Origin: Melghiribacillus thermohalophilus
GTDB lineage: Bacteria > Bacillota > Bacilli > Bacillales > Alkalibacillaceae
NCBI RefSeq assembly: GCF_004342905.1
Contig: NZ_SMAN01000008.1
Span: 1-64,000 of the forward strand
Direction: 5' to 3'
DNA length: 64,000 nucleotides
The translations under genes were made by a program, and so were the position numbers. Positions 27,523 to 39,550 of this stretch are shown in pieces (position 1 is the stretch's first letter; every line of letters begins with the position of its first letter). The notes beneath the pieces were generated by a model. It was not told the DNA's origin and made no database searches. It was given only the letters and a program-made list of their open reading frames with translations.

Positions 27523-27602
27523 GGAGTCAACCTGCTTAGACTCCAGGTCGACAAAAAACGGCCACGTCCTGTGGCCAACATTGACACTAGCACGTCCTGT
27601 GC
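27523..27602. repeat. Cluster of three small hairpins sharing a CGTCCT loop
   Basis: Three inverted repeats follow each other: GGAGTC/GACTCC (27523-27544), GGCCAC/GTGGCC (27560-27576) and GCAC/GTGC (27590-27602). The last two have the same loop GTCCT, so CACGTCCTGTG appears twice. The surrounding 27440-27690 holds no gene. It looks like a mobile palindromic repeat or structured RNA element; no second copy was noticed in this window. Confidence 0.5.
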
Positions 27603-27708
27603 GTCGCGGGAACAACATGAGCGAAAATCACAAAAGACAGAAGGATGAGCTGCCTAGCGAAGCCTCAAGCCTTGCCCGCTGAAAATGATGCATATTGACG
27701 AAATAAAA

Positions 27709-35445: not shown

Positions 35446-37338
35446 TCAAGCCCTCTGTTGTTTTTTGGGAATCATCTGTATGCACGTTTGAATGATATTT
35501 TCAGTAGTTAAACCAACTTCTTCTAACAATTTATTCACGCTTCCGTGTTCAATAAACCTATCTGGAATCCCCATTCTTTCCACATGTTGCTGATAAAAAC
35601 CGTTCTCCTGTATAAACTCAAGAACTGTACTTCCAAAGCCGCCCTGAAGTACATGTTCTTCAATCGTGAGAATTGGTATATGTTCATTCAGTATTTGCTG
35701 AAGCATCACTTCATCGAGAGGTTTGATGAAGCGTGCATTGACAACTCTTATCGATAGTCCCATTTCCTTCAGCTGCTGACTGGCTTTCACAGCAATCGGA
35801 ATCATAGTTCCGAAAGTTAAAATAGCGAGATCTGTTCCTTCTTCCAGCACTTCCCATGATCCAAGCGGAATGGTTTTCAGTTCTTCATCCATGTTTACGC
35901 CCAGTGCATTTCCCCGGGGGTAACGAATCGCGATGGGACCATCGTCATACTGTATAGCTGTGTTAACCATGTGCTGGCACTCGTTTTCATCTTTCGGCAT
36001 CATCAGTACTATATTGGGAACATGACGTAAAAAAGCGATGTCAAACACACCCTGATGGGTTTCCCCGTCTGCACCGACCAGCCCTGCACGGTCAATCCCG
36101 AAAGTAACGTTTAAATTTTGTCTGCAGACATCATGAACAACCTGATCATATCCTCTCTGCAGGAAGGTGGAATAGATGGATAAAAAAGGTTTCATGCCCT
36201 GAGCAGCTATGCCGGCAGCCATTGTGGTTGCATGCTGTTCAGCAATGCCCACATCAAATAGCCGATCCGGAAATTCCTTTTTGAAATCTTCCAGTTTCGA
36301 ACCCACCGTCATTGCAGGGGTAATGGCTACAATACGTTCGTCGTCCCGTGCAAGTTTCATCAAGGTATCGCTGACGACTTTACTCCAGGCGGGACCTGTA
36401 CTTGCTTTTTTTAAAGTTTCTCCAGATTCAATTTTATAGGGTCCAACACCATGCCAGGTGCCCACTTTGTCCGATTCGGCTGGATGATATCCTTTGCCCT
36501 TTTTTGTGATGACATGAATGAGAACAGGACCATCCGTTTTACGGGCATAAAGCAGGTTTTCAAACAGATCTTCAAAATTATGTCCATCAACGGGGCCGAA
36601 ATAGGTAAAACCGAGTTCCTCAAAAAACATACCGGGAACCATAAAATATTTCATACTGTCCTTTAGCCGTTCAGCGGCATTAGCAATTTTTCCACCGACG
36701 GCCGGTATTTTTTTGAGCAGCCATTCCATTTCATCTTTAACCCAGTGGTATTTAGATGCACTTCTCATTCGACCGAGTACATTATGAAGCGCTCCGACAT
36801 TTGGAGCAATGGACATCTCATTATCATTTAATATCACGATAATATTTTTCTTTTCGTCACCGATGTGATTCAATGCTTCAAGAGCCATTCCACCTGTTAG
36901 TGCTCCATCTCCTATAATGGGTACAATGGCATAATCTTCTCCTTTTAAGTCCCTGGCAACGGCCATTCCCATCGCAGCGGAAAGGGAAGTTGAGCTATGA
37001 CCCGTTTCCCAGACATCATGCTCACTCTCCGTTCGTTTGGGAAAACCGGCTAATCCCTTATACTGACGAAGGGTATCAAACTGTTTTGTACGTCCGGTCA
37101 GGATTTTATGAACATAGGATTGATGTCCCACATCCCAGATTAACTTATCCCTGGGACTTTCAAATATTTTGTGAAGGGCAATCGTCAGCTCGACGACTCC
37201 CAGATTGGGGCCAAGATGTCCACCGGTTTTCGATAGCTTCGTAATTAAAAACTCCCGGATCTCGACTGCCAGATCCTCAAGCTGTTGATTGGAGTAACTT
37301 TTCAAAAACGATGGATTTTTGATGGAATACAGATCCAT
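35446..37338 (-). CDS. dxs: 1-deoxy-D-xylulose-5-phosphate synthase
   Basis: A 630-residue thiamine-dependent first enzyme of the non-mevalonate isoprenoid pathway. [17 protein letters not shown] and the ThDP site [18 protein letters not shown] through ILNDNEMSI are clear. The catalytic-domain segment [18 protein letters not shown] lies at about 430-450. It is 16 bases after oapA. The chain ispA, OLE RNA, oapA, dxs puts the RNA inside an isoprenoid gene cluster. Confidence 0.97.
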
Positions 37339-37354
37339 CCAGGATCACTCACCT

Positions 37355-37942
37355 TCATCTTGATTTTTTCAAATCTGGCAATAATTTCAGATGCAACTTG
37401 TCTTCCAGAAAAGCGATGACCTTGCCGGCGAAAAGAATAATGGAGGTAGAAGCATGGATGGCAAAATATTTACCAAGGGCTTTACCGCCTACTGTCAGGG
37501 CCGCTACGACGCTGGTAAATATGACAGAAACAGTCGTGTGCATGGTTGATTCTTGCTGAAATCCTATGCCCAGAGTCAATTGCAGCACCACAAAGGCCGA
37601 AGCGGTACCGCTTACAATTCCTGATATATCACCAATCACGTCATTGCAGAATGACGCGAATTTATCTGCATTTTTCACGATGATGATCGCCTGTCTGGCA
37701 CCATAGACTTTGTTGGAAGCCATGGCATTTAATGGAACCTCATCTGCTGCTGTCGAAGCTATTCCAAGCATATCAAACATGACCCCAATCAGTACAATCC
37801 CCAGCACGACGAGAATCCCGAAATACCAAAGGACCCCCTCTAACAATAGCGTCGAAACAACTGAAAAAAGTGCCGCTAACACAAAAGTGATAACGGCAAT
37901 ACTCAGACTAAATCGTATAGACCTTTTAAATTGATTTTTCAT
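37355..37942 (-). CDS. oapA: OLE-associated membrane protein OapA
   Basis: A 195-residue protein with about four hydrophobic helices (starting near FSLSIAVITFVLAALFSVVS). A conserved cytoplasmic-looking loop reads ADEVPLNAMASNKVYGARQA then FASFCNDVIGDISGIVSG, and the C-terminus is basic (KLHLKLLPDLKKSR). The loop resembles DUF21/CNNM-type proteins. The gene lies immediately 3' of the OLE RNA and before dxs, the place of oapA in Bacillus halodurans, where OapA dimers bind the RNA at the membrane. ATG 37942 follows GAGGG; the 86 codons before it are OLE RNA sequence. Confidence 0.88.
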   Translation of the reverse strand: MKNQFKRSIRFSLSIAVITFVLAALFSVVSTLLLEGVLWYFGILVVLGIVLIGVMFDMLGIASTAADEVPLNAMASNKVYGARQAIIIVKNADKFASFCNDVIGDISGIVSGTASAFVVLQLTLGIGFQQESTMHTTVSVIFTSVVAALTVGGKALGKYFAIHASTSIILFAGKVIAFLEDKLHLKLLPDLKKSR

Positions 37943-37984
37943 ATATTTTCCCTCTATATCATACATCCATGTATCATTTTGTAA

Positions 37985-38620
37985 GTAAACCAAAGAGACG
38001 GGATGGTCATTTAAAGGGTAAATATTGCGGCTTAAGGTCCAGTAGGTTTTCCCAGGCGGATACCGTGTGTTGCCACAGCGGCGGTTCCCCTTTAAATCCA
38101 CCTTAGCCCCGTCACCGAAGGCTAGACTGGACTGCCACTTAGTCCGCACTACAATCCCCTTTAAATGTCCATGACGGAACAGTCTAGGAGATTTCCTCAA
38201 CAGCCTTTAGCCGTTCCCTAGCCTCTTTTGCAGTACTGATTTCATATGGTGTCGCGAGCGTTAAAACAGTGGCCAGCTGTTTTTTACACTCAATCCATAA
38301 TCCCCTCAGTACCACTCAAGGCAGGCTACGCTGTGCATAGAGATGCCCAATCCCTATGACACAGGTTCATACCCCATTTCGTAATGTTCTGCACGATCAC
38401 AGCACACCACAAAGATGGGCCTCCGCGGGGGCAGGGTCAACGCCCACATGCCTTTGTGGATCGCCCTACCCCCTTAACTCCCAGCACCGACCCAGGGCTG
38501 GGCGCCCCAAGCCGACACAAGGAACTTCATCGATGTGCCCTTTGGCGGATTTTTAGGCCCGCCTTCAGGAACGGAGGGCTGACTAGAATACTGCACCATC
38601 CCACCTATCTTTTTTGGTAA
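37985..38620 (-). ncRNA. ole: OLE RNA (ornate, large, extremophilic RNA)
   Basis: About 640 nt, much richer in G+C than its surroundings, with no coding frame that makes sense. It sits between ispA and the OapA-like gene, exactly where OLE RNA lies in Bacillus halodurans. Minus-strand helices visible include CCACAAAG/CTTTGTGG (38452-38459 with 38407-38414) and a 14-bp long-range helix joining 38157-38170 to 38005-38018. Many GA/GNRA-like internal loops are also present. The ends are approximate. It is known from B. halodurans to form a membrane RNP with OapA and to matter under ethanol and cold stress; those roles here are inference. Confidence 0.88.
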
Positions 38621-38671
38621 TATTAATATATCATATGTTTCAGGTATGCTCAATGAAAATCGTCTGTATGA

Positions 38672-39550
38672 CTAGTAGTTGCGGTTCCCAGAAAAATCGA
38701 TAAATTCATACAATAACGGATGAGTGATATCAGCCTGTTTTAAAGCTTCTCTTGCTTTATTCATATAATGTTTTTTCTTTTCATTTGCTCCAGCTAGCCC
38801 AAGCAGTTTGGGGAATGTGCTTTTTTCACTACTCTCATCACTGCCAACAGGCTTTCCGATTTCATCTTTATTCCCAACAACGTCTAAAATATCATCCTGT
38901 ATCTGGAAGATCATGCCTAGTGCCTTTCCGTAATGATCCATTTGTTCAAGCTGTGGCGGCGCGGCACCTCCTAGATATGCCCCTGCTCTCACAGAAAACC
39001 GTATTAATTCACCAGTTTTTAACAGATGGATGTGTTCGAGCTCAGACAAATCAATCGATTTTTTTTCAGCCTGAAGATCAAGCATTTGACCGGCCACCAT
39101 TCCTTCTGGTCCGCTCGCCTTTGACAGCTCCCTGATCAAGAAAATTTTTTCTTCTGCGTTTAAAAGTGGAGAAGAGCTGATTACATAGAACGCTGCTGTC
39201 AATAACCCATCACCTGCTAAAATAGCGGTACCTTCCCCAAACTGCTTATGATTGGTCGGTTTCCCCCGCCGAAAGTCATCATCATCCATTGCTGGCAAAT
39301 CATCGTGAATAAGGGAATACGTATGAATCATTTCGATAGCACAGGCGGCGGGGATCACATGTTCAGATAAAGGGCGGAAAGCTTCATAAGTAGCCATCAG
39401 TAGAATCGGCCGAAGTCTTTTGCCGCCGGCTTCGACAGAATAAATCATAGAATTTTTTAAGTGCTCTGGAATCTTTTGTTTTTCAATGGTGTCAAGCAGA
39501 TGTTTGTTCATCCAGGATTGTTTTTCTGATATATACTCTAATAAGGTCAC
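38672..39550 (-). CDS. ispA: Farnesyl diphosphate synthase (polyprenyl synthetase)
   Basis: A 292-residue chain-elongating prenyltransferase. First Asp-rich motif [17 protein letters not shown], second motif [14 protein letters not shown]. It uses a GTG start behind AGGAGG and overlaps xseB by 4 bases. The OLE RNA locus begins directly downstream. Confidence 0.96.

Follow-up and report, generated by a model that had tools for sequence, protein, structure and literature searches.

OLE RNA and the partner gene oapA in Melghiribacillus thermohalophilus, with a shortened OLE RNA in a relative

OLE RNAs are among the largest structured RNAs of bacteria. Their folded elements have been assigned to different partners in published work: P4a is one of two palindromic regions bound by OapA, and the OapB-binding region falls within the 3' domain (PMC12265935); P5/P5.1 together with J4a/5 constitutes the OapC kink-turn region (PMC9723947, PMC12286853), and P6/P6.1 is the site of bS21 as well as the dimer partner of the P5.1 loop (PMC12054373, PMC12265935). 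In Halalkalibacterium halodurans the RNA has its own promoter (PMC9723947) and its P6 carries a CCUCCU anti-Shine-Dalgarno match. According to a proposal in the literature, the P3/P3.1 helix spans the membrane, and switching between palindromes in P9.3 has been reported (PMC12286853). OapA is related to MpfA (PMC11332333). Two OLE variants, 1 and 2, are either short in P7-P9 or devoid of P7 and P8 (PMC11332333), and in two clades reduced variants go together with a lack of OapB and OapC.

We analysed a window of 64,000 nucleotides of M. thermohalophilus (contig NZ_SMAN01000008.1, positions 1 to 64,000), for which an initial annotation had proposed an OLE RNA followed by oapA. Both parts of this proposal were upheld, by a full-length match to RF01071 and by an OapA-type protein encoded downstream, and it is very probable that a full-length OLE RNA and OapA, its membrane partner, are encoded at this locus, and that the genes for OapB, OapC and bS21 lie elsewhere in the genome. 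The RNA shared with that of H. halodurans the full-length P1-P15 architecture, the conserved loops, the site directly before oapA and the possession of its own promoter; it differed in the absence of CCUCCU from P6, with otherwise no structural difference of note.

Gene order, promoter and distribution of OLE

The locus was composed of the following features, listed in the direction of transcription.

38672-39550, minus strand: ispA, upstream of OLE (family assigned from the translated sequence)
38625-38653, minus strand: OLE promoter, TTGAGC (38653-38648), 17-nt spacer and TATATT (38630-38625), recognised by the conserved pattern upstream of OLE
37987-38615, minus strand: OLE RNA, full length, 629 nt (RF01071, 544.7 bits, E 5.8e-157)
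37355-37942, minus strand: oapA, 195 aa, four-TM protein, likely start at ATG 37942 preceded by AGAGGG (37955-37950)
35446-37338, minus strand: dxs, downstream of oapA (family likewise taken from the translation)

By coordinates, the initial annotation was correct in placing the RNA between ispA and the membrane-protein gene, with dxs next. The gap between ispA and oapA spanned 729 nt (38671-37943); the RNA inside it (38615-37987) came close to the 640 nt attributed earlier to the noncoding stretch, and its 3' end was separated from the oapA start by 44 nt. G+C content was, as claimed, higher in the RNA (52.5%) than across the window (42.6%). The alignment to RF01071 covered positions 1-616 of the 616 of the model, with a score far above the gathering score of 50 bits, and OLE was single-copy in the 3.0-Mb genome.

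Of the 151 genomes of the order, 107 contained OLE; in the window's family the figure was 23 of 23. In every one of the 88 relatives read, oapA lay downstream of the RNA on the same strand, at a distance of 23-212 nt. The nearest named relatives were mostly halophilic Bacillaceae, the closest one being a Bacillaceae metagenome assembly. OLE/OapA is near-standard equipment in the family and common in the order, and the window adds one clean example. The locus is real and well conserved; it is not new, since its RNA is an ordinary full-length representative of a known, well-studied class that is common in the order. A location of OLE on mobile elements was considered and set aside, as the phage search gave no match for OLE and there was only one partial plasmid match. 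The latter corresponded to positions 200851-201353 of NZ_AP023421.1, a record of 504 kb classified as a Pusillibacter faecalis plasmid, with no annotated feature beneath the match.

The window OLE promoter displayed an extended -10 TG at 38633-38632. The pattern TTG-N16-18-TGnTAnnnT preceded OLE at 78 of 88 loci; shuffled sequences gave 0.7 on average and at most 4. Conservation of an extended -10 promoter before OLE throughout the order is an addition of the present comparison to what was reported for H. halodurans.

Fold and conserved elements of the RNA

In agreement with the structure claimed for the stretch, none of 20 dinucleotide shuffles matched the fold energy of OLE, which was 5.3 SD better; the covariance-model match pointed in the same direction. 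Covariation was analysed in 89 aligned sequences, consisting of the window OLE and 88 OLE RNAs from relatives, and pairing partners slid by 1-3 positions served as control. The pair counts come from related sequences and do not represent independent events. The elements referred to below were located as follows.

38595-38602, minus strand: P1, 5' strand GGGAUGGU, pairing with ACCAUCCC at 38007-38000
38000-38007, minus strand: P1, 3' strand ACCAUCCC (covariation across the 89 sequences)
38567-38581, minus strand: 5' strands of P3.1 (38581-38577) and P3 (38574-38567) (covariation)
38201-38218, minus strand: 3' strands of P3 (38218-38211) and P3.1 (38205-38201) (covariation)
38528-38535, minus strand: P4a palindrome CAUCGAUG, with ACAUCGAUG in 81 of 89 sequences
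38478-38524, minus strand: P5/P5.1 hairpin with loop GCCCA, 47 nt in 87 of 89 sequences
38427-38473, minus strand: P6/P6.1 hairpin with loop GGCAUG, 47 nt in 86 of 89 sequences
38270-38275, minus strand: P9.3 loop UGGCCA, the self-complementary kissing loop of the OLE dimer (palindrome count in 89 sequences)
38008-38179, minus strand: 3' domain, P10-P15 (RF01071 alignment)

Pairs of the Rfam model were formed in 89.7% of cases across the 89 sequences, in contrast with 39-44% in the slid controls. P1, P3 and P3.1 are known from the literature and are left unpaired in the Rfam model; covariation gave independent support to all three. P1 was paired in 95.1% of cases (28-64% in slid controls), P3 in 93.9% and P3.1 in 100%; both partners had changed in 7 of 8 pairs of P1, in 6 of 8 of P3 and in 4 of 5 of P3.1, the last two helices together giving 10 of 13. 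This order-level support for helices left out by Rfam is one of the results of the comparative set that could serve specialists. In 88 of 89 sequences the P3.1/P3 5' strand had a length of 15 nt. We weighed this constancy as evidence on the transmembrane model; since the lengths of P1, P4, P5 and P6 were equally fixed, it does not discriminate, and the test was discarded.

All the loop sequences involved in dimer contacts were found in the window RNA, namely CUAAAAA (the A-rich loop of P4), GCCCA (P5.1), GGCAUG (P6.1) and UGGCCA (the palindromic loop of P9.3); the contacts themselves are read from these loops and their pairing is predicted. The core of the P9.3 loop was GGCC in 71 of the 89 sequences, AGCU in 8 and GAUC in 2, the kind of switching between palindromes already reported (PMC12286853).

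Partner proteins and a shortened OLE RNA in a relative

Genes for OapB and OapC were looked for elsewhere in the genome, as the initial annotation had suggested, and both were found, together with bS21. The OapB gene was situated between map and infA, and residues 6-96 of its product matched the solved OapB 7k9b (E 4e-35); a first KOW-family search of the genome missed it, and the gene was located through its place between map and infA. The OapC/YbxF gene was situated between rpoC and rpsL, and its product matched the YbxF structures 3v7e and 4lck (E 1.5e-25 and 1.9e-25, respectively) far better than YlxQ (3v7q, E 6.5e-5). By these alignments the OapC of this genome is YbxF and not its paralogue YlxQ. 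From the conservation of all these parts we infer that the OLE RNP would form in this organism.

One relative of the same order, G139 (a single 3.16-Mb contig, completeness 83%), harboured a considerably shorter OLE RNA.

L041:2144-2632, L183:19273-19533 and L182:3251-3577: coordinates of the short-OLE observation in G139

This RNA was 489 nt long and scored 253 bits. P4a, P5.1, P6.1 and P7 were missing, and with them the motifs CAUCGAUG, GCCCAG and GGCAUG; the P2 region, the loops of P4 and P9.3 (the latter UGGCCA) and the 3' domain were all intact. The interval from P4 to P9 measured 78 nt, in contrast with 184-228 nt in the 86 other sequences measured; two small hairpins might be formed in it, with a fold no better than chance (z -1.0). 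The region lost holds the published OapC and bS21 sites plus a dimer bridge. The G139 oapA gene (201 aa) started 89 nt downstream of the RNA, and oapB and bS21 were also present. The only L7Ae-family protein of G139 was encoded between nusA and infB, a position that identifies it as YlxQ rather than OapC, and the 261-nt interval between rpoC and rpsL contained no OapC-type gene.

Among the 107 OLE-positive genomes, G139 was the only one without a detectable oapC, and its RNA is the one that lost the OapC region; if both losses were unrelated, the chance of their meeting in one genome would be about 1 in 107, a post hoc figure obtained from a single genome. It is about an even call that the OLE complex is modular and that the module binding OapC and bS21 can be lost as a unit. 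If so, the G139 RNA would be a natural third variant, in which a core (P1-P4, P9-P15, OapA and OapB) is separate from an accessory module; it offers a ready-made minimal OLE for tests of structure and function, and makes the modular view testable. Its bit score falls within the range of variant 2 (PMC11332333), but unlike the descriptions of variants 1 and 2 in that work it additionally lacked P4a, P5.1 and P6.1. It also departs from the published reduced variants in that OapB and the OapB region stay, whereas OapC and the OapC region go.

In G139 (L041), the automatic promoter pattern failed some 30 nt before the OLE; by eye, GTGACA and TATACT separated by 17 nt, with an extended -10 TG, could be recognised, and the short OLE probably still has its own promoter. 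As regards the order as a whole, five of the 151 genomes were without an OapC match, these being G139 and four genomes of another family, f22. The latter (G043, G086, G119 and G148) were OLE-negative and without an OapC/YbxF match, a rare loss in the order.

OapA and the possible roles of the complex

The window OapA was 46-88% identical to the proteins encoded after OLE in all 88 relatives read, and its Pfam CNNM score stayed below the cut-off (9.9 vs. 28.4 bits). Of 40 OapA sequences, 25 matched Pfam CNNM, the best at 1.3e-6, and searching solved structures with the OapA sequence yielded nothing of use. In sequence, OapA is related to CNNM only remotely. An AlphaFold2 model (pLDDT 81) displayed four long helices plus short ones, and its sole high-probability matches in the PDB were the CNNM/CorC structures 7m1t, 7m1u and 7cff; probabilities for these membrane domains were 0.97-1.00, yet the E-values were 0.015-0.6. 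These matches agree with the published relationship to MpfA (PMC11332333). OapA thus appears to share with the MpfA/CorC/CNNM transporters a common membrane-domain fold with weak sequence similarity, and differs from them in the absence of CBS and CorC domains, as the protein stops at residue 195, straight after the membrane helices. With respect to known OapA proteins, its length, its four long TM helices and its place directly after OLE were the usual ones, and only ordinary sequence divergence was observed.

The question raised initially, of whether the downstream protein would group with ordinary CNNM proteins, was answered in favour of OapA by its alignment with the OLE-linked proteins, and the ordinary CNNM-CBS-CorC gene is a separate one. 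The genome keeps one true MpfA-type protein of this kind; OLE/OapA is therefore not its sole CNNM system, and OLE and MpfA coexist. The complete MpfA-type gene (L009:9915-11192) lies on the same contig as the window, around 52 kb from OLE.

The mechanism that we rank first is regulation of a CNNM-type metal transporter. Following published work, OLE would be transcribed both as part of the long operon and from a promoter of its own, would form dimers by means of the loops of P4, P5/P6 and P9.3, and would be held at the membrane by OapA. OapA may be the membrane-embedded half of a divalent-metal transporter of the CNNM type, devoid of the CBS and CorC regulatory domains, with the OLE dimer and OapB, OapC and bS21 acting as its regulatory part; such regulation would tune the handling of Mg2+, together with growth in the cold, in alcohol and on poor carbon sources. 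Metal-transporter regulation is the likeliest mechanism, at slightly short of even chances; in the literature, too, its metal step has the status of a hypothesis.

Sequestration of bS21 is ranked second. According to this explanation OLE would act mainly on translation, P6 mimicking a Shine-Dalgarno duplex and keeping bS21 off the ribosomes under stress, with OapA merely as an anchor. The bS21 gene of this genome, the published bS21 binding and phenotypes (PMC12054373) and the P6 G-C pairs, conserved in 88 of 89 sequences, speak for it; these near-invariant pairs neighbour the CCUCCU site and are in keeping with published mutants. However, CCUCCU itself occurred in P6 of only 3 of the 89 OLE RNAs of the order, the window copy not being one of them, and G139 provides a natural OLE without the P6 region in a genome that has bS21. 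We consider this explanation unlikely. Catalysis is ranked third: size, structure and conservation resemble those of known large ribozymes (as argued in PMC11332333), and OLE might produce a signal such as c-di-AMP, but no catalytic activity was reported in the OLE literature examined, which makes a ribozyme improbable, more so than an action on translation.

Finally, the frame of oapA remains open upstream as far as TTG 38200, and the stretch could accordingly be taken for coding sequence extending OapA at the N terminus, or for an unrelated structured leader, a reading to which we give practically no credence in view of the RF01071 match, the compensatory changes and the ribosome-binding site before the ATG at 37942. 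An open frame of at least 200 nt before oapA appeared at only 1 of 89 loci, that of the window (264 nt; median 24), so it is not conserved coding sequence and the N-terminal extension was ruled out. The earlier statement that this frame is RNA sequence and not protein is thereby sustained, and the open frame is a peculiarity of the window sequence.

Elsewhere in the window, a Bacillaceae-1 small RNA (RF01690) was matched at 27536-27603 on the plus strand, with 36.1 bits against a cut-off of 35; it is located in an intergenic gap and consists of two hairpins with CGTCCTGT loops.
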